Shown in pieces: positions 21,128 to 31,020 of a DNA stretch of 64,000 bases (position 1 is its first letter; every line of letters starts with the position of its first letter). The stretch is from positions 1,550,001 through 1,614,000 of the forward strand of contig NC_091273.1 in assembly GCF_042100115.1 (NCBI RefSeq), read 5' to 3'. The translations under genes and the position numbers were made by a program. The notes beneath the pieces were generated by a model. It was not told where the DNA came from, searched no databases, and saw only the letters and a program-made list of their open reading frames with translations. This DNA is from Alternaria dauci (lineage: Eukaryota > Ascomycota > Dothideomycetes > Pleosporales > Pleosporaceae).

Positions 21128-21601
21128 TGTTACAAGGTAACAAGGAATTGCCTTCCTTTCATGCAGGTCGCATGAAGGAAGACCATCGGGCGGACACGTT
21201 GGACGAAAGTGGATCTAGGGCGGGGCCCAGATCACGTGAAAGGAATGGCATCCCGCCAAGACCTGGCCTCTGGGAGGCCAGTGAGGATTGGGAGGTCACG
21301 GCCCTCCTAGGCCTCCCTCTTGGAAGGGAGGGCAAGGAGGACAGGACCTAAGGCAAGGGGTATAAGAATGTGTTGGATCTCATTATTACACTCGTTGTGG
21401 TCAACTCAAATAGTTCATCTCTTACACAGATTGTCAACTAGTTATTCTATTGTTATAGAATTGGTAGCGTTATTCTTTGGTTACAACGATAACTCTTTTC
21501 CACCTGATCATTCCATATCCTACCTCACGGACTATCGCCAATATCTATCTCGCCTTAGTACGGACCGAGCTTAGAGAAGTATAGCAAACCCCCGTGTAAC
21601 A
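21128..21601 (+). repeat. 5' LTR of element D
   Basis: 474 bp, TGTTACAAGG to GTGTAACA. It is followed immediately by the primer-binding region. The two overlapping small open frames inside it (21127-21351 and 21320-21574) recur identically in the 3' LTR and look like chance frames. Confidence 0.95.
21361..21404 (+). promoter_or_regulatory. Predicted TATA box and RNA start with self-primer, element D 5' LTR
   Basis: A tataaga box starts at 21361. About 30-36 bases downstream, where transcription would be expected to begin, lies gtggtcaa (21397-21404). It is perfectly complementary to ttgaccac at 21604-21611, just inside the LTR. In the Tf1/sushi group the 5' end of the RNA primes its own reverse transcription through such a match. 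Both the start site and the priming mode are inferred from sequence only. Confidence 0.5.
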
Positions 21602-21613
21602 CTTTGACCACCT
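21602..21613 (+). other. Predicted primer-binding site, element D
   Basis: The bases directly after the 5' LTR (ctttgaccacct) do not resemble the complement of an initiator-methionine tRNA 3' end. They contain the 8-base complement of the likely RNA 5' end, suggesting self-priming. Confidence 0.5.
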
Positions 21614-21664
21614 TGGATATCAGTGGACGTTTAACCAACAGGACAGCCCGATTAAGATTCAACA

Positions 21665-23605
21665 ATGGCTCATCAGGGAAACGCGCAGAACAACAGGGCT
21701 CAGGGTCAGGGACCCTCGACGCCAGCACGCCCTACCCCAGAAAATGATGAGATGCTGGAAGCATCCGATGACGAGGGAGAGAACCCTAACGTCACCGAGC
21801 TCAGGAATCTTAGGCAACACACAACCACGCAGGCTCAGCAGATTGCTGAGATGCAGGCAATGATCAATCAGCTTGCAGGGCAACTGATGATGACCCCTAA
21901 CGAACGACCCGTTGCTACAAAGAAACCCAAGATAGCGTCACCAGAGAAATACGGTGGAGAACGAGAAAAGCTACGAGTATTTCTCACCAACATCGACCTG
22001 TACTGCGAGTACAACGAGGTACCCAACGACCAGGAAAAGATCCTCATGGCCAGTACATACATGAAGGATAAGGCTTCCAATTGGATGCAACCCTATGTGG
22101 ACGATTATCTGCTGGATGCAGAACACATGGGCACCAAAGAAGGAACCCGTACCTTATTCGCAAGTTGGACAGAGTTTAAGCAAGAGATGGGACGCATCTT
22201 CGGAGAAGTAGACGCTCAGAACCAGGCAGAGAAGAAGATCACTCGCCTGAGGCAGACCTCGTCAGTATCGGCATACACGGCGGAATTCAAGCAACTACAA
22301 GCACGGATCGATTGGGATGATGCGGCACTTCGAACGGTATTCGAAGCAGGCCTCAAAGAGAATGTCAAGGACGGCCTTGTACACCACGATAAGCCCGGGA
22401 CACTACACGCTCTGATTGAGCTAGCCACGCGTATCGACAACAGGTTGTGGGAACGAAACGATCAGAAGAAATACTTCCGACCCAACCTGCCCAACATGAA
22501 GAAACAGCGTGGTAGATTCGACAGGGATGGCGACGCCATCATGACCGGCAAGGTACAAGAGAAGGCCAAAGACAAGAAAACCCGAGGAGGTAAAAGACAC
22601 GACGGTCTCTCCAAGGAAGAACGCCAGCGGCGTTACGACAACAAAGCATGTCTCCGATGCGGGAAGACAGGACACTTCGCTAGGGATTGCGAAGAAGAAC
22701 AAGTCAAACAGGCAGCTATCAAGATCCGGATGATCAGACAAGGCACGCCTTACCCGGCCGGGATAGAGCCGGATGACAACCTAAGCGACTTAGACCTATA
22801 CGAGGAGGCACGCTTGGAGGATAAGGAAGGCTACGAAATCGTCCCAAGAGTTAAACCGGACAACGAAGTTCTCACCATGGGCCAGCCAAAGAAGACTGAC
22901 TGGAAGGTCAAAGGCACCATCGTGATGGAACGATTAGCCAACAACCAGTGTTGGGTATGTGGTAACAAGACACACTACGCCGACGAATGCACGGTTCGCG
23001 AACGAATCATGATTACCGGCCCGAATGCCGAAGAAATTGGGTATCAGGCGATACACCAACAACCCTACTTCGATGATCCAATGGTTGAGGTCGAGGACCA
23101 AGAAGCCCACGAAGTAGAAGATACCAAGGATCACAAGGATTTGTGTTGGTATGACTGTAAGATAAATTGCGAGTTCCATAAGCAAGATAAGGAGGATTGC
23201 AGGACAGACCAGGACCGGTGCTGCCACCTGAACCTCTGGGCAGACGAATGTCTAGCAGACATCTGCCATCTACACGAACCAGAGAAAGTGGAGATCCACT
23301 ACAGACTTCTATGGACGCAATGCAGGAACGGGTGTGACTTCCATCGCAAGCAGCTCAAGGAAGCACACAAGGTGGATGACTATTACCATCGCACCCTATC
23401 ATCAAACATCTGCGAGGTAGCAGATTGTGAGATTCACGAGGCCAAGAAGGCTCAACCAAGGAAGAGGATCACCAGGGAGGAGATACCTCACCAGAACATT
23501 CATTGGAGCTTCTGTTACGACGACAGGTGCTTGACGCACTACAGCTCAAAGAATGACACAGGCTACTTTCCTAAGTACAGGAAAGGTAAGCAGTCAAAAA
23601 ACTAG
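21665..23605 (+). CDS. gag: Gag polyprotein, element D
   Basis: 646 residues. It is the structural protein that would form the retrotransposon particle and package RNA. The central part (about residues 95-230) has the retrotransposon-gag capsid fold signature (LYCEYNEVPND...ASNWMQPYV). A classical CCHC zinc knuckle lies at residues 329-342 (CLRCGKTGHFARDC) and a second at 429-442 (CWVCGNKTHYADEC). The last ~160 residues hold five more Cys/His units of the form C-x3/4-C-x2-H, which ordinary knuckles do not explain. The start is the first ATG after the leader, in a favourable aacaATGg context. The TAG stop is preceded directly by a frameshift heptamer leading into pol. Confidence 0.93.
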   Translation: MAHQGNAQNNRAQGQGPSTPARPTPENDEMLEASDDEGENPNVTELRNLRQHTTTQAQQIAEMQAMINQLAGQLMMTPNERPVATKKPKIASPEKYGGEREKLRVFLTNIDLYCEYNEVPNDQEKILMASTYMKDKASNWMQPYVDDYLLDAEHMGTKEGTRTLFASWTEFKQEMGRIFGEVDAQNQAEKKITRLRQTSSVSAYTAEFKQLQARIDWDDAALRTVFEAGLKENVKDGLVHHDKPGTLHALIELATRIDNRLWERNDQKKYFRPNLPNMKKQRGRFDRDGDAIMTGKVQEKAKDKKTRGGKRHDGLSKEERQRRYDNKACLRCGKTGHFARDCEEEQVKQAAIKIRMIRQGTPYPAGIEPDDNLSDLDLYEEARLEDKEGYEIVPRVKPDNEVLTMGQPKKTDWKVKGTIVMERLANNQCWVCGNKTHYADECTVRERIMITGPNAEEIGYQAIHQQPYFDDPMVEVEDQEAHEVEDTKDHKDLCWYDCKINCEFHKQDKEDCRTDQDRCCHLNLWADECLADICHLHEPEKVEIHYRLLWTQCRNGCDFHRKQLKEAHKVDDYYHRTLSSNICEVADCEIHEAKKAQPRKRITREEIPHQNIHWSFCYDDRCLTHYSSKNDTGYFPKYRKGKQSKN

Positions 23606-23657
23606 GATGCCGCCAGGGACAGGGTCACGCTGGTGAAGGCAGTCCTAAAACGACCCT
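23596..23657 (+). promoter_or_regulatory. Programmed -1 frameshift signal (heptamer plus predicted pseudoknot)
   Basis: The heptamer A AAA AAC (23596-23602) lies in the gag frame as codons AAA AAC, followed at once by the TAG stop. A slip of -1 enters the pol frame, which is open from 23602 onward. Downstream, TGCC (23608-23611) can pair with GGCA (23638-23641) and GCCAG (23612-23616) with CTGGT (23630-23634). The loop AGGGTC (23621-23626) is complementary to GACCCT (23652-23657), which would make an H-type pseudoknot. The pairing was found by eye, not by a folding program. Confidence 0.75.
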
Positions 23658-26600
23658 TAGGAAGGTGCAGGATACCGATGGTCGGGTGAAGCAGCTGCTC
23701 ACGACCGTATCTGTACAGGGACGAAACATCGAGGCGCTCGTAGATAGCGGGGCCGCACGAACGATGATCTCACCCAGAGTGGTGGAGAAACACGAACTAC
23801 CCTACCGGGTTAAGAAGAACCCAGTATCGGTACTGTTAGCCGACGAGAAACCCATGGAATATGGAAACGGCATGATACGGATGGAAACCGAATCAACAAA
23901 GCTACGGATAGCTGGCATAGAGTGCCAAATGAATATCGACATAATGGAACTAGGAGGACTAGACATGTTGATTGGTTATGACTGGCTAGATGCCCATAAC
24001 CCCGCCATCGACTGGCGAATGAAGACGATACTCAGAAGAGAACCTGTGCACAAGGTTGCTGGAGTACGCCAAAGAGTGAGCCCGAAGGACCAGAGCTCAA
24101 CCCAGGACGGGAGGTTCGGCAAGATCTCGCCTCATAAGATCATGAGAATCTATGAGAAGGACCCTCAAAGAGTAGGAGTCATATGGATAAGACGAGTCGC
24201 GACCACGAAGGAAGGACCCTTACCACTAGAGATACCAAGAGAGTATCAGACCGACGAGTTTAGAGAACTCTTCGAGGAAAACGAAGCCACGGATTTGGCA
24301 GACCATCAGGATTGGGATCACGAGATCATCCTAGATGAAGGGGCAAAGTTAAGCCCAGGACCTATGTATCCCATATCGCCCGAGCACGATGCTGAGCTAA
24401 GGGAGTACATCCAGAAGAATCTGAAGAAGGGATTTATCCGACCGGGATCAGGCCCAATGGCCTCACCCATCTTGTTCGTAAAGAAGCCTAACGGGAAGTG
24501 GCGACTATGTGTCGACTTCCGAAGGTTGAACAGCGTTACTCGGAAGAACCGATATCCCTTACCACTAATAACCGAGCTCATGGATCGACTCCAGGGAGCC
24601 AAGTGGTTTACGAAGTTCGACGTTCGGGAAGGATTTCACCGAATCAGGATCAAGGAAGGACACGAATGGATGACAGCGTTCAAAACGAAATATGGACTGT
24701 TCGAGTACACAGTAATGCCTTTTGGGTTAACGAATGCCCCGGCAACGTTTCAGTCAGTCATCAACAACGCTCTTCACGAGTACCTTGGAATCTTCGTCAC
24801 AGCGTACATCGACGATGTGCTGGTATACTCTAGCGGGACGCTAGAAGAACATGTGGAACATGTCAAGAAAGTGCTCAGGAAGCTTAAGGAATACAAGCTG
24901 TACCTGCAGCCGGGGAAGTGCGAATTTCACACGAAGGAAACGGAATACCTAGGCTTCATAATATCCACAGAGGGGGTGAAGATGAACCCAAAGAAGACAG
25001 CGGCTGTACAGGAATGGCCAACGCCCAAAACAGTCAAGGACGTGCAATCCTTCCTAGGATTTGCCAACTACTACCGGAAGTTCATCAAGGATTACTCAAA
25101 GATCACAACACCTCTCTCCGAGATCACGAAGAAGGAAGTTGGTTTCAAATGGAACGAGGAACATCAGGAGGCTTTTGATCGAATCAAGCAGATATTCCTC
25201 GAGGCACCAGTACTAGAGATGTACGACCCAAAGCGAGAGACGCGAGTCGAGACCGACGCGTCAGATTATGCACTCGGAGCTGTATTGTCGCAGCAGTGCC
25301 CAGACAAAAAGTGGAGACCAGTGTTCTACCACTCAAGAAAGTTCTCTGGAGCAGAACTAAACTACGACGTTCACGATAAGGAGCTACTAGGAGTAGTCGA
25401 TGCCTTTGAACAGTGGGAAGTCTATTTGCTAGGACTACCACACCAGATCGAGGTTTTTACCGATCACCAGAACTTGGCAGGTTTCATGACAACGAAGAAA
25501 CTCAACCGACGACAAGTCCGATGGGCTGAGATGCTAGCTCAGTTCGACTTCAAGATAACTCACCGCGCTGGAACGCTCAACGGAGCTGCGGATGCTTTAA
25601 GCAGGAGATCCGACTTACGCGAGGAAAATCATAAGGAACCACATGACGCCATGTTCAAGAAGATGCCTGATGGCACACTACGTTACAACCAGCCGGAACT
25701 AGCTAAGATAGCTAAGGTGGCCGAGCGGGTAGAAACACTTCAGCAGCAGTGGCAGCAGAGAGCGGCCAGCTGGCAGTTCGAGCCTGACGAGAACGGCTCC
25801 GACGAACTGTTACAAGACGAGCGAGAGTACCGAGATATGATTCGAAGCGATCGAACATATGTACCCCCACACATGAGATCGAGTCTCATCAAGGAACTGC
25901 ATGAGTCCCCAGAGTATGGACATGCATCGCTAGAAGAAATGGTCAGGCGACTATCAAAGGTGTTTGCGATACCACGCTTGCGAGCGAAGGTGCAGGACGT
26001 CCTAGGCAACTGTTTGGCTTGTCATCAGAACAAACCCAAGAGACATAAGCCCTATGGCCTGTTACAACCCTTACCGCCACCAACGAGACCATGGAGCAGC
26101 GTAACAATGGACTTCATAGTGAAGCTCCCGAAGTCGTTAGAACCAGGATCCGGAAGATTATGCGACACAGTCCTAGTCATCGTGTGTCGTCACACGAAAG
26201 GAGCAAAGTTTGTGCCCACGGAAGAAACCATTACGGCAGAAGAATGCGCGTATGAGGTCAGCAAGGCACTTATGTCAGAACATGGGATACCTGAAGAATT
26301 CATCACCGATCGTGATAAACTGTTCACTTCCAAGTATTGGAACACATTCCTGGCAAAGCTGGGTGTGAAGAAGAAACTATCGACTAGCTTCCACCCCGAA
26401 ACAGATGGCCAGACGGAACGAACGAACCAGACACTGGAACAGTATCTGAGGATGTACGCCAACAAGCTGCAAGACAATTGGGTTGAACTCTTGCCGACAG
26501 CACAATTGGCCTACAATAGTACTAGGTCTGCGACGACTAAGTACTCACCACACTACGCGAATTACGGATATGAGCCGGTTGCTCATCGAGATCCAAAAGA

Positions 26601-27765
26601 TATAGAGAGTATCGCAGTAGGTGCAGACGACAAAGCCCGCTTGATGCGAGGACTGCACGAAGAATTGAGCAAGAACATAGCTCATAGGAACCTCACGACA
26701 GCCAAGGCGGCTAATAAGCAAAGGATTGAGGGACCAACCTTTAAGAAGGGGGACAAAGTTTTCCTGTCACGTCAGAACTTGAAAACTAAGCGACCAAGCA
26801 AGAAACTGGACAACCTCCGAATAGGACCATTCGAGGTTCTAGAGGAAATGGGTAACGTAAACTACAAACTCCAACTCCCACCAGGCATGCGCATCCACCC
26901 TGTCTTTCACAAGAAACTCCTGGAAAGAGCACCTCCAGATGCCGAGCTAGCTACCGACATAGAGCTCGAAGACGATGAGTACGAGGTCGAAGAAATCAGG
27001 GACCTGCGGAAAATCGGTCGTCAGTGGAAATACTTGGTCAAGTGGCTAGGATGGCCAGAGAGCCAGAACACTTGGGAACCAAAAGAAAATTTGACGAACT
27101 GCAAGTCACAGGTACGTGAGTACCATCGGAAACACCCAGAGAAGGGAGGACCGGGTCCTCAAGGGAAGAAAAGAATTCAGAAAAAGGATCGAAAGAAGCG
27201 TCATCCTGCAACCAGCCCAAGTCAGTCGACAGTCCGGGTAGCGATGGTTCAGTTGGTTGAAAGTCCGTACCAGGGGCAGAGTTCCCCTCGGCTTGCTCTT
27301 TCGCGCGATCCTGAAGACTCAAAATGGCGTGATCTCGATCAGCGAATGCTCGCTCTCGCGCCTCAGTCTCTGCCACTTCCAGCCGAAGTTGAGCGACCTC
27401 GGCCTCAGCTCGAAGAAGCGCCAAGCGCTTCTCGCGCTTTTCAGCCTCAACCTTCTCCCACTCTTCCTCAGTCACAAATAAGCTACACTCAGCTTTCACC
27501 GAAATACAGCCCGCACACTGCCCAGAGGCAGTGTCCACGAAACAACGAAGATTCTTCTCCTCACACCGCTTGCAACGAAAGGTCATCTCGTTCCCTTGTT
27601 GGCGGATACGGTCAGCACGAGCCTGGCGCTGTTGAGTCGAGTTCTGGGTACGGACGCGTCGAGAAGTCTGAACCTTGGGCATGGTCAGGGAAAGTGAGGA
27701 AAAGAGGAAAGAGAGGATACGACACCACCGGAGTAGCTATACCTCCACCACCGCCGCCGGACTAG
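23602..27765 (+). CDS. pol: Pol polyprotein, element D (protease-RT-RNase H-integrase-chromodomain)
   Basis: Made as a Gag-Pol fusion by -1 frameshifting. No ATG is needed; the first near-start codon in frame is GTG at 23665, and residues here are counted from it. The aspartic protease motif is DSGA at 27-30. Reverse transcriptase carries YIDD at 381-384. RNase H has an ETDAS motif near 531. Integrase has an HHCC zinc finger (GHASLEE...CLACHQNK) and the catalytic triad D816, D882, E918, with exact D,D-35-E spacing. The chromodomain is at about 1105-1155 (KYLVKWLGWPESQNTWEP) and would bind histone marks to direct insertion. A proline/serine-rich tail of ~200 residues follows, overlapping an antisense ORF. 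Confidence 0.94.
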   Translation, partial: LGCRQGQGHAGEGSPKTTLRKVQDTDGRVKQLLTTVSVQGRNIEALVDSGAARTMISPRVVEKHELPYRVKKNPVSVLLADEKPMEYGNGMIRMETESTKLRIAGIECQMNIDIMELGGLDMLIGYDWLDAHNPAIDWRMKTILRREPVHKVAGVRQRVSPKDQSSTQDGRFGKISPHKIMRIYEKDPQRVGVIWIRRVATTKEGPLPLEIPREYQTDEFRELFEENEATDLADHQDWDHEIILDEGAKLSPGPMYPISPEHDAELREYIQKNLKKGFIRPGSGPMASPILFVKKPNGKWRLCVDFRRLNSVTRKNRYPLPLITELMDRLQGAKWFTKFDVREGFHRIRIKEGHEWMTAFKTKYGLFEYTVMPFGLTNAPATFQSVINNALHEYLGIFVTAYIDDVLVYSSGTLEEHVEHVKKVLRKLKEYKLYLQPGKCEFHTKETEYLGFIISTEGVKMNPKKTAAVQEWPTPKTVKDVQSFLGFANYYRKFIKDYSKITTPLSEITKKEVGFKWNEEHQEAFDRIKQIFLEAPVLEMYDPKRETRVETDASDYALGAVLSQQCPDKKWRPVFYHSRKFSGAELNYDVHDKELLGVVDAFEQWEVYLLGLPHQIEVFTDHQNLAGFMTTKKLNRRQVRWAEMLAQFDFKITHRAGTLNGAADALSRRSDLREENHKEPHDAMFKKMPDGTLRYNQPELAKIAKVAERVETLQQQWQQRAASWQFEPDENGSDELLQDEREYRDMIRSDRTYVPPHMRSSLIKELHESPEYGHASLEEMVRRLSKVFAIPRLRAKVQDVLGNCLACHQNKPKRHKPYGLLQPLPPPTRPWSSVTMDFIVKLPKSLEPGSGRLCDTVLVIVCRHTKGAKFVPTEETITAEECAYEVSKALMSEHGIPEEFITDRDKLFTSKYWNTFLAKLGVKKKLSTSFHPETDGQTERTNQTLEQYLRMYANKLQDNWVELLPTAQLAYNSTRSATTKYSPHYANYGYEPVAHRDPKDIESIAVGADDKARLMRGLHEELSKNIAHRNLTTAKAANKQRIEGPTFKKGDKVFLSRQNLKTKRPSKKLDNLRIGPFEVLEEMGNVNYKLQLPPGMRIHPVFHKKLLERAPPDAELATDIELEDDEYEVEEIRDLRKIGRQWKYLVKWLGWPESQNTWEPKENLTNCKSQVREYHRKHPEKGGPGPQGKKRIQKKDRKKRHPATSPSQSTVRVAMVQLVESPYQGQSSPRLALSRDPEDSKWRDLDQRMLALAPQSLPLPAEVERPRPQLEEAPSASRAFQPQPSPTLPQSQISYTQLSPKYSPHTAQRQCPRNNEDSSPHTACNERSSRSLVGGYGQHEPGAVESSSGYGRVEKSEPWAWSGKVRKRGKRGYDTTGVAIPPPPPPD
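27038..27682 (-). CDS. Antisense ORF in element D: Zn2Cys6-like, coiled-coil protein
   Basis: 214 residues, read opposite to pol, with its ATG 140 bp inside the 3' LTR and its stop within the chromodomain coding sequence. Residues 1-36 are basic. Six cysteines at 37, 40, 47, 56, 59 and 66 have the spacing C-x2-C-x6-C-x8-C-x2-C-x6-C, which fits the fungal Gal4-type binuclear zinc cluster. Residues 72-130 are rich in E, K, R and L and look like a coiled coil, where Gal4-type proteins dimerise. A short acidic/aromatic patch (DDASFDPFSEFF) follows. The frame is also legible in element C. If expressed, it would probably bind DNA; nothing shows its target. It could be spurious, but cysteine and tryptophan conservation in a diverged copy argues otherwise. 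Confidence 0.65.
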   Translation of the reverse strand: MPKVQTSRRVRTQNSTQQRQARADRIRQQGNEMTFRCKRCEEKNLRCFVDTASGQCAGCISVKAECSLFVTEEEWEKVEAEKREKRLALLRAEAEVAQLRLEVAETEARERAFADRDHAILSLQDRAKEQAEGNSAPGTDFQPTEPSLPGLSTDLGWLQDDASFDPFSEFFSSLEDPVLPSLGVSDGTHVPVTCSSSNFLLVPKCSGSLAILAT

Positions 27766-27807
27766 GCGCGGGAAAACGATAATCCAGGGTATCGAGACGA
27801 TACGCCT

Positions 27808-27818
27808 AAGAGGGGGGG
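27808..27818 (+). other. Polypurine tract, element D
   Basis: aagaggggggg, three bases upstream of the 3' LTR. It is the expected plus-strand DNA primer. The same tract is recognisable before the 3' LTRs of A and B, and in weaker form (aaaaagaggg) before that of C. Confidence 0.85.
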
Positions 27819-27821
27819 TAA

Positions 27822-28295
27822 TGTTACAAGGTAACAAGGAATTGCCTTCCTTTCATGCAGGTCGCATGAAGGAAGACCATCGGGCGGACACGTTGGACGA
27901 AAGTGGATCTAGGGCGGGGCCCAGATCACGTGAAAGGAATGGCATCCCGCCAAGACCTGGCCTCCGGGAGGCCAGTGAGGATTGGGAGGTCACGGCCCTC
28001 CTAGGCCTCCCTCTTGGAAGGGAGGGCAAGGAGGACAGGACCTAAGGCAAGGGGTATAAGAATGTGTTGGATCTCATTATTACACTCGTTGTGGTCAACT
28101 CAAATAGTTCATCTCTTACACAGATTGTCAACTAGTTATTCTATTGTTATAGAATTGGTAGCGTTATTCTTTGGTTACAACGATAACTCTTTTCCACCTG
28201 ATCATTCCATATCCTACCTCACGGACTATCGCCAATATCTATCTCGCCTTAGTACGGACCGAGCTTAGAGAAGTATAGCAAACCCCCGTGTAACA
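27822..28295 (+). repeat. 3' LTR of element D
   Basis: 474 bp, identical to 21128-21601 except for C at 27965 where the 5' copy has T. After it, element C resumes at 28296 (atagagcttaaag), the homologue of the pol sequence that stops at 21127. Confidence 0.95.
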
Positions 28296-28640
28296 ATAGA
28301 GCTTAAAGATAATAAGTATAAGGTTAAAGAAATTAGAGACTTATAGAAAATTAGTTATTAGTAGAAATACTTAGTTAAGTAGCTAGGATAGCTAGAAAGC
28401 TAGAATACTTAGGAATAAAAGGAAAATTTAATAAACTATAAGTTATAGGTATATAAGTACTATTAGAGATACTTAAAGAATAGAGGACTAGGTCCTTAAA
28501 AGAAGAAAAGAATTTAGAAAAAGGATTAAAAGAAGTATTAGCTTATAACTAGCTTAAGTTAATTAATAGTTTAGGTAGTAATAGTTTAATAGCTAAGAAG
28601 TTTATACTAAGGGTAGAGCTCCCCTTAGCTTACTCTTTTA
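28296..28640 (+). pseudogene. Chromodomain and pol tail relic of element C
   Basis: Continues the C pol relic after element D. The RIPed chromodomain segment (homologue of 26960-27130) is clear. The following tail aligns with D only to about 28640, after which the sense sequence diverges. Confidence 0.8.
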
Positions 28641-29029
28641 TATAATCCTAAACTATAAGAATTACTAAATTATAATAAGTATATATCTACTCTTATTTAT
28701 ATACCTTAAGGAGCTCTAACTTTTAATAAGATAACTAAACCTCTAAGTAAGTTACTACTAACTCTTTCTCTTTATACTCTTCTTATACCTTCTTCTACTT
28801 ATCTCTAGAGATAAATAAACTATACTTAGCTTTAATAGAAATATAACTAGTATAGTAACTAGAAGTTATCTTTATAAAGTAGTAAAGCTTCTTATCTTTA
28901 TAATATTTATACTAAAAATCTATCTTAAGGCCTTCTTACTTAATATATATAGTATAAGTATACTTTTACTTAGTAAAAGACTAAATTTAAAGACTATAGG
29001 ACTTTTAAACTTTAGGTATAGTTAAGGAG
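28640..29029 (-). pseudogene. RIPed antisense Zn2Cys6-like ORF of element C
   Basis: Reading the minus strand from the mutated start codon (ata, first base 29029) in the frame homologous to D 27682-27038, stops sit where tgg, cag or caa are expected. All six zinc-cluster cysteine codons have become tat/tac (tyrosine), with the spacing unchanged. The downstream Trp-x-Lys-Val and Glu/Lys/Leu heptad-like segment is also recognisable. The left limit is approximate. Confidence 0.6.
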
Positions 29030-29160
29030 ACTAAAGGAAGGAAGAGGTAACTATAATAGCCTAAGGCTTACTAACTTTATATATAGCTAATACCTTAACG
29101 CGTAGTATAGAAAATTAATAATTTAAGGTATTAAGATAATACGCCTAAAAAGAGGGATAA

Positions 29161-29621
29161 TATTATAAGATAATAAGAGGATTCTCTCCTTAATATAAGG
29201 GTTAGGGTTAGAAGCTAACTAGTAGCTATATTAAAAAGTAATAATCTTAGTAGGGCTATAGTTATATAGATAGTATCTTACTAAGATAAGTCTTCTTAAG
29301 ATACTAGGTCCTTACTAGATACTACTAATATCTAAGATATAAAAGGCTAGGTAAGATATTAAGACTTATAGTAATAAGTATAAGAATATATTAGATCTTA
29401 TTATTATACTTATTATAGTTAACTTAAATAGTTTATCTCTTATATAGATTATTAACTAGTTATTCTATTATTAATAGGATTAGTATTATTATTCTCTTAG
29501 TTATAATAATAACTCTTTTCCACCTAATTATTCTATATCCTACCTTATAGACTATTGCTAATATCTATCTCACCTTAGTATAGACCGAGCTTAGAGAAGT
29601 ATAGTAAACCCCTATATAATA
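29161..29621 (+). repeat. 3' LTR of element C
   Basis: 461 bp, same type as 1114-1574 (variant first half, D-like second half). It is followed by atata, matching the atatt before the 5' LTR in four of five bases. Confidence 0.87.
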
Positions 29622-31020
29622 ATATACTATAATAATAATAAAAAAAAAGTCTATAAAGGCTAAGGCTAACTACTAAGGTATTATATAAGGCTTTCTCTAG
29701 ATAGTATCTTATATATAGACTAGAGTCTACTAGCTACTTAATATATATTTAACACTAGTATTATATAAGGCTAGTTACGTATTAACTAAGTATCTTATAA
29801 AGCTATAGTCCTAGGCTAGTAATCTTATAATAGCTTATACTTAGTTATTATCTAAAAGCCTTTTAGGTAATAGAGTAATACTAATCTTATATAGTAAGTA
29901 AACCTATTAATATATAATAGAAGAGGTAGTTAAGGAGCTTAATATACGTTACATTAATAAAGTCTTAAGGTAAGGCTCTACTAATTAGGATTAAATATAA
30001 AATATAAGGGGCTATACTTAAGGAGCTATTATATAGGTATACTATTATTATATTTAATAGAGAAGAGAACTATAGGCTACCTTATCCTAAAGGTTAATTA
30101 GTAGTAGCTTAGATTATCCTTTAGTCTAAGGTTTAAGGGTTTAGTTTAAGTATTATTTAGATATATTAACTATAAGCTATACACCTTACGTACGTAACTA
30201 AGATACTATTAAGGAATAAGCTAATTAGGCTTTAGCCTATTATATAGACTATAAGAGGATAATAGGTTATTAGTATACCTAAAATAATAACCTAATAGTA
30301 GTTAGTAGTTACGTAATTACTTAGTACTTAGTACTCTTAGTATAACTAAGTAATACTAATTAGATTATAGGACTACTTAGTACTTACTACTCTTAGTATA
30401 ACTAAGTAAAGCTAAGTAGTAGACACTTATTAAGTATATAGCCTAGATACTAAACCCTTATAGCTTAGTATATTTAACTTTATATAAGACTCTAGTATTT
30501 AATCTCATAATTATACTTTATTCTTATATAACCCTAATAACACTACATTAATCTTCTAATTATACTATTACACTAACACCGTCTATCGCGCTTGCTTATT
30601 CCTAGGAACTAACTTATAGGTTATCTAAGGATAACCTTTATAACTAAAGACTACTTAGAGATAATAATATAGGTAGTTAAAACTATAAGAATTAAAAGCC
30701 TAGATAAATAAGAATAGATTATATAAGTTAGCCTTAAGTAGTTATAGTTTTAGTAGCTAGAACTTATAGGTATAGTAGGACGCTAGAAAGTAGAACTTAA
30801 AAGTAAGATTAGGGGTAGTATATATTATATTAAGTTAATGTATTAGTACTCTAATTTCTCCTCTCCCCACCTTAAGGGTATATTTAGTGTACTGCGCTAT
30901 AGCCCTACGTCGCTGTAACGCTTACAGACTCTAGGTTTAGGAAATAGAATCCTTACTAACACTACGCCGTAACTACTACTAGTAAAAATTCACCTATTCC
31001 TATATGTTGAGGTCGTGTTC
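29622..31020. repeat. RIP-degraded repeat, right host of element C
   Basis: AT-rich RIPed DNA with no open frame. Ignoring RIP stops, about 29650-29830 loosely resembles the C-terminal part of a fungal non-LTR reverse transcriptase; this is weak and unverified. Two 35-bp direct repeats lie at 30319-30353 and 30375-30409 with one mismatch, each containing the inverted repeat cttagt-ata-actaag. CpA/TpG content starts to recover after about 30480, and normal composition is reached near 31020. Confidence 0.6.

Follow-up and report, generated by a model that had tools for sequence, protein, structure and literature searches.

An antisense gene with a Zn2Cys6-type cysteine cluster in an Alternaria chromovirus and its candidate pairing with a seven-site array in the element's own LTR

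In the usual view, LTR elements rely on transcription factors borrowed from their hosts. A Ty3/Gypsy chromovirus in a 64,000-nucleotide stretch of the Alternaria dauci genome (contig NC_091273.1; the window) raises the question of whether an element can carry its own, encoded antisense to the tail of pol, and which promoter such a protein would control. The element (Table 1) has the PR-RT-RH-INT order and the C-terminal chromodomain of Ty3/Gypsy chromoviruses, and its two LTRs of 474 bp differ at one position, which indicates a young copy. No target-site duplication was found, the five bases before the element (AAATA) and the five after it (ATAGA) not matching. Related copies were sought in 34.9 Mb of this genome on ten contigs. 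The window element appears to carry its own transcription factor with the target sites beside it.

Table 1. Map of the window element, its antisense gene and the U3 array (positions in the window)
Feature	Position	Strand	Basis or remark
Ty3/Gypsy chromovirus	21128..28295	+	near-identical LTRs, TG...CA ends
5' LTR, 474 bp	21128..21601	+	1 mismatch to 3' LTR
5' LTR copy of U3 array	21264..21343	+	
gag ORF, 646 aa	21665..23605	+	Retrotrans_gag, Ty3_capsid, zf-CCHC (Pfam)
pol ORF, 1333 aa, PR-RT-RNaseH-INT-chromodomain plus tail of ~210 aa	23764..27765	+	
pol chromodomain, residues 1073-1123	26980..27132	+	PF00385, E 4e-14
Antisense gene, 214 aa	27038..27682	-	ORF, six-Cys motif, dN/dS
Six-cysteine cluster C37-C66 of antisense protein	27485..27574	-	sequence, alignment of relatives
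Pyrimidine-rich tract, candidate antisense start region	27683..27727	-	directly upstream of antisense ATG, 82% C+T
Polypurine tract preceding 3' LTR	27808..27818	+	sequence
3' LTR, 474 bp	27822..28295	+	
U3 array, seven class I sites, RGGAGGNC(A) or close	27958..28037	+	in 3' LTR
Array sites	27958-27966, 27966-27974, 27984-27992, 27994-28002, 28003-28011, 28020-28028, 28029-28037	-, +, +, -, -, +, +	in this order
Array core columns	27962, 27970, 27988, 27998, 28007, 28024, 28033		
TATAAG, candidate TATA box of sense promoter	28055..28060	+	sequence; 17 bp downstream of array

The antisense ORF is intact, with its ATG at 27682 and its stop at 27038, and lies within the pol ORF over its whole length, covering the end of the chromodomain and the greater part of the pol tail. 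As the original prediction held, it encodes 214 residues opposite the tail of a chromovirus pol, with six cysteines (C37, C40, C47, C56, C59 and C66) spaced C-x2-C-x6-C-x8-C-x2-C-x6-C; the intervals (2, 6, 8, 2, 6) fit the Zn2Cys6 pattern C-x2-C-x6-C-x5-12-C-x2-C-x6-9-C. The coiled coil and acidic patch proposed to follow the cluster were likewise recovered, as a helix or coiled coil predicted at residues 72-133 and an acidic stretch at residues 138-190. The latter contains 10 acidic, no basic and six aromatic residues (net charge -10), a composition that we take to resemble acidic activation domains, while the N-terminus is basic (net +7). The start of the ORF, which had been placed just inside the 3' LTR, lies instead in the internal region, the ATG being 139 bp upstream of the LTR in the sense direction. 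A pyrimidine-rich tract before the ATG would fit a fungal transcription start; only 11 of 6175 antisense-strand stretches of 45 bases in the internal region reach 82% C+T, all of them at this tract, and C+T at the same position is 80% in three type B copies and 71% in type C (types defined below). The antisense transcript may start in or next to the 3' LTR.

On the window protein the Pfam profile for the Gal4-type cluster (Zn_clus, PF00172) scores 12.0 bits (cut-off 21, E 0.24), and 23 of the 75 aligned family members match it at E 0.01 or better (best 1.7e-4). The Pfam scan found no domain beyond the zinc cluster in the 214 residues. HBZ of HTLV-1 is a bZIP protein; no bZIP domain was found in the antisense protein by the same scan at E up to 1, and with its zinc-cluster layout it differs from HBZ, to which no homology is claimed. 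The structure model has a mean pLDDT of 68.9 overall and block means of 73-98 over residues 11-130, the only part in which it is usable, and has the layout expected of Gal4-type proteins, a two-helix cluster fold followed by a coiled coil for dimerisation. The best 15 of 17 Foldseek matches in the PDB are Gal4-type clusters (GAL4, HAP1, PUT3, LEU3 and PPR1), headed by 1aw6 (E 0.2, probability 0.97, TM 0.70 by target), all matches being weak (E at least 0.2). With Gal4, Hap1, Put3, Leu3 and Ppr1 the protein shares the cysteine spacing, the predicted fold, the long helix after the cluster and an acidic C-terminal part; unlike them it has only 214 residues, lies antisense in a mobile element, and has candidate sites that are not CGG triplets. 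Motif, relatives and predicted model together suggest that it would bind zinc and DNA and would dimerise.

With an E-value limit of 0.01, database searches returned 165 relatives of the antisense protein; a profile search gave 188. Among the best 120 of the 165, 110 have the six cysteines with identical spacing, the other 10 being shortened or having lost cysteines, and the genera named among these 120 (Bipolaris, Exserohilum, Pyrenophora, Alternaria and Stemphylium) all belong to the Pleosporaceae. Several relatives are annotated 'Zn(2)-C6 fungal-type' or 'GAL4 domain'. Relatives of the antisense protein also come from Cochliobolus heterostrophus (a name we take to be a synonym of Bipolaris maydis), where pol tails are able to encode them. 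In an alignment of 75 relatives, picked by hand from those listed and reaching down to about 46-50% identity, C37, C40, C47, F48, C56, A57, C59, I60, C66, F69, W75 and D117 are invariant.

A sense pol search with the tail as query, which favours elements with an open sense tail, gave 38 matches; those named come from Bipolaris, Curvularia, Alternaria and Pseudopithomyces, plus one chromodomain-only match from Rhodosporidiobolus. In the 36 with a recognisable chromodomain end, 24 pol tails could encode all 11 antisense invariants tested, at a similar distance from the chromodomain, three more could encode the six cysteines only, and nine could not (mostly short or unrelated tails); shuffled tails reached the 11 invariants in 0 of 200 cases for each tail. 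Judged from these protein records, the antisense arrangement appears to be present in several genera. Within the A. dauci genome, 22 of at least 83 antisense matches were scored as full length and free of stops, and many copies are broken by RIP.

The overlap allows a sharp test of the two frames, since the wobble base of an antisense codon is the middle base of a sense codon. Between the window copy and locus L031, differences at sense positions 1/2/3 number 66/43/182 in upstream pol and 38/75/28 in the tail overlap (chi-square P 9e-20 for the contrast). Transversions alone, which RIP (C to T) cannot produce, number 9/2/30 in pol and 21/37/12 in the tail overlap, and the sense-only end of the tail shows no preference for any codon position (12/13/13 substitutions). 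An antisense frame behaving neutrally beside a constrained sense tail had been named in advance as the refuting outcome; the result was the opposite, with dN/dS of 0.19-0.26 for the antisense frame, 1.41-1.60 for the overlapping sense tail and 0.13-0.33 for upstream pol, values to be read as a contrast and not as exact rates, given a simple method that ignores frame overlap. They compare the window with five copies (L031 of type C; L032, L033, L034 and L036 of type B) that amount to two comparisons, some of them RIP-mutated, with stop codons dropped (0-8 antisense, 3-11 sense tail, 11-24 pol). Over eight cassette types (28 non-independent pairs), transversions at antisense wobble, first and second positions number 877/514/271; the wobble position leads in 26 of the 28 pairs, and the first position in A with E58 and A with L070.

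Full-length copies, the spacing kept in relatives and purifying selection on the antisense frame show that this is no chance ORF. On the strength of these sequence comparisons, it is a real protein-coding gene kept by purifying selection, the sense tail being without detectable constraint. That it should be a mere by-product of an open, constrained pol tail is hardly credible. The sense tail is open here and is long in the 27 of 36 relatives that can encode the six antisense cysteines (in a search that favours open tails), and in a codon simulation the probability of its being open by chance, given the antisense protein, is 0-0.011, so that the absence of stops may itself be selected; its dN/dS of 1.4-1.6, however, contrasts with that of the antisense frame, its sense-only end is flat over codon positions, and the length of the sense tail varies much among relatives. 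As a full explanation, the by-product reading is ruled out. In the reverse simulation, 3-8% of the sense-tail codings keep the antisense frame open, so that openness alone is no proof of a gene. The sense tail (27133-27765) is open here and long in many relatives, yet no constraint is detectable in its sequence. In L031 the antisense frame is open but C47 is replaced by tyrosine, and the sense frame has stops, also in the chromodomain.

It is improbable as well, though less so than the by-product reading, that the antisense RNA matters and not the protein, acting through double-stranded RNA, small RNAs or transcriptional interference. Antisense non-coding transcripts of fungal transposons are described for Blumeria hordei (PMC10648671, in the passages cited here), but the low antisense-frame dN/dS requires selection on the protein, and so do cluster residues that stay invariant in sequences with identities as low as about 46-50%.

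The antisense gene and the U3 region of the LTR differ sharply between copies of otherwise similar elements, as judged by transversions only. Relative to the window copy, L032-L034 have a rounded transversion rate of 0% throughout gag-pol, apart from a single bin at 1%. The rate is 14-15% over the N-terminal two thirds of the antisense gene, and 17-19% over the left half of the 3' LTR. Wobble sites of upstream pol differ by transversion at 3 of 1091, so that the divergence reflects replacement by recombination and not fast evolution. Antisense gene and LTR U3 thus make up one exchangeable cassette, carried by a gag-pol that hardly varies. Typing of 62 loci by transversions, with types refined afterwards, gave a window-like majority (A), B (L032-L037, L054, L056), C (L031), D (L046, L053) and E (L058, L062); type F (L063-L065) and L066-L071 were added later. 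The R-U5 half of the LTR (28058-28295; L001-L030) differs from the window by 0-5% transversions among copies that are near-identical in the pol end and the antisense gene, as though this half had been exchanged among genomes packaged together.

The array in the window consists of four direct and three inverted sites of the class I word GGGAGGNCA, the four direct ones matching the pattern exactly. The word GGAGG is found 7 times in class I (type A) U3, where dinucleotide shuffles give 2.1 (P 0.006), and GATGG is found 6 times in type C U3, where shuffles give 0.7 (0 of 500); both words were chosen after looking at the sequence. GGAGG is the commonest word of class I U3, where the maximum word count is not unusual against shuffles (P 0.21); the maximum count over all words in type C U3 is unusual (P 0.012). 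A third word, AGATG, occurs 5 times in type F (L065) against 0.6 in base shuffles (0 of 1000). Array words in types B and E are GGATGG or its presumed RIP product GGATAG, the sites of type E and many of those of B reading as the presumed RIP product GATAG. At least three copies of GGAGG are present in 51 of 63 segments, and none or one in 12 (eight B, L031, L058, L062 and one window relic), the segments not being independent and some loci counting twice. TATAA is present at the candidate sense TATA position in types A to F. The palindrome TCACGTGA (CACGTG core) at 27926-27933, a possible host bHLH site, is kept in the U3 of types A, B and C (L031, L033, L034). The stretch directly behind the element (28296-29660) is the 3' part of an older relative, degraded by RIP, whose antisense gene and array are class III-like.

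Ten array columns carry the transversion pattern that sets A and D apart from B, C and E, and seven of these are the fifth base of the seven sites, which is G at every site in A and D and T in B, C and E. RIP cannot be their source, and seven independent chance changes, at sites of both orientations, would be a poor explanation; a change of the factor reading the sites would account for the simultaneous switch. In the antisense gene, 20 columns support AD|BCE and 2 support DE|ABC, and in the array the ratio is 10:0; in the gap plus left U3, the stretch of about 270-275 bp between gene and array, it is reversed (0:10). Type D thus groups with A in gene and array, and with E in the intervening stretch, a discordance that could stem from one patch conversion. 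Types C and F are alike in gap and left U3 (4-5% transversions), but 13-20% apart in the gene and 26-29% in the array. L070 differs from A at 2 of 186 positions in the zinc-domain block, 22 of 186 in the coil and 9 of 90 in the array; its outer left U3 is B-like (1 of 68 differs), and it falls into class I by distance but keeps a single exact GGAGG.

Over eight types (without L071), array distance correlates with distance in the zinc-domain block (r 0.83, a value reached in 3 of 5000 permutations), more weakly with the coil (r 0.40; 137 of 5000) and not with the left U3 (r -0.13); with L071 included, the correlation of array and zinc domain falls to r 0.24 (570 of 5000). In the first test, with six types, the whole antisense gene gave r 0.51 against gap plus left U3 and r 0.45 against the array. 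The possibility, raised in the original prediction, that the protein controls the element's own LTR gains support from the coupling of U3 site classes to classes of the DNA-binding domain, which agree in eight of nine cassette types although the U3 backbones differ; 3 of 1260 label arrangements do as well, a count that ignores shared ancestry. Residue 44, by spacing presumably the place of the base-contacting lysine of Gal4, is lysine in class III proteins and asparagine in classes I and II; lysine 44 is also found in the database relatives P0084, P0086 and P0092. The exception, L071, encodes a class III protein between two class I LTRs and is flanked by direct repeats (AAGAG), and has therefore transposed as a hybrid; its expression may have relied on a class I protein from another copy, or matching may not be needed.

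We consider it fairly probable that the self-encoded Gal4-type (Zn2Cys6) protein, as a coiled-coil dimer, binds the seven-site array in its own LTR and switches the LTR promoter. The protein would dimerise through its coil, the dimer would bind the array, and the bound protein would control the sense promoter of the LTR, probably by activating it. As the array of the 3' LTR also stands upstream of the antisense gene, the protein would perhaps control its own promoter as well. Activation is suggested by the acidic, aromatic, basic-free stretch. Class switching may give an element family a private circuit or an escape from cross-control by relatives. The wider picture, for which the odds seem to us about even, is of an element lineage whose antisense transcription factor coevolves with a seven-site LTR operator, at least three private orthogonal circuits (GGGAGGNCA, GGGATGGCA and AAGATGYCA) being traded as cassettes.

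The same coupling might also arise if the antisense gene is real but a host transcription factor binds the array, the antisense protein acting instead on host genes, host silencing or a different step of the life cycle, and the co-variation coming from adjacency and joint movement. We think this rather unlikely, although it remains the strongest competitor. Gene and array are only about 275 bp apart, and for this reason their joint descent by linkage is in part to be expected; the intervening 270 bp, however, differ in history from both, and without L071 the array distance tracks the DNA-binding block and not the nearer left U3. The transposition of L071, a class III protein with class I LTRs, fits a host factor, as does the lack of enrichment of CGG triplets, the common Zn2Cys6 half-site, in U3. 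One factor common to all copies in a nucleus would nevertheless leave the seven simultaneous core changes unexplained.

The original prediction knew of no fungal retroelement with an antisense regulator, and for an antisense gene as such this does not stand: brtn, the antisense gene of Boty-like Gypsy elements in Botrytis cinerea and Sclerotinia, is already described (Zhao et al. 2011, Virology 417:248, as reported in passages of PMC7264820, PMC8365987, PMC4227169 and PMC5987419). Its host is likewise a fungal chromodomain Gypsy element with an extra antisense gene between pol and the 3' LTR; by that description brtn follows pol, whereas the window gene overlaps the pol ORF, and the cited passages mention no site array, class switching or frame-specific selection. 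In plants, antisense ORFs between pol and the 3' LTR, with a proposed regulatory role, are described in Retand (TRP28 domain, DNA binding predicted), Grande (gene23) and RIRE2 (PMC11963269, PMC7264820). These differ in having an unrelated domain in a long separate region and not a pol overlap, Retand belonging to a non-chromovirus lineage, and coupled LTR sites are not reported in the passages cited. HBZ, a nuclear regulator likewise encoded antisense near the 3' end of its retroelement, is similar in principle (mentioned in PMC11963269). A term search for 'antisense' found nothing in the main text of a fungal LTR-element survey (PMC3248453) or of a Cochliobolus heterostrophus transposon paper (PMC4112212). 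Relative to the portions of the literature covered, the antisense coding proof against the sense frame, the zinc-cluster assignment for the family and the coupled protein and LTR-site classes are new.

Sister families within one genome seem to have diverged in specificity and so provide a natural set of protein-site pairs, some matched and some mismatched, that can be put to the test. If the element controls its own LTR, this would suggest a role for a class of antisense genes described as of unknown function in the passages cited (PMC7264820, PMC11963269). Some hypothetical proteins annotated 'Zn(2)-C6 fungal-type' in Pleosporaceae would then be accounted for as products of retrotransposon genes. 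Two relatives, P0049 and P0063 (one from Exserohilum turcicum), carry two tandem zinc-cluster/coil units per protein, and the zinc region of L069 resembles the second of these units.
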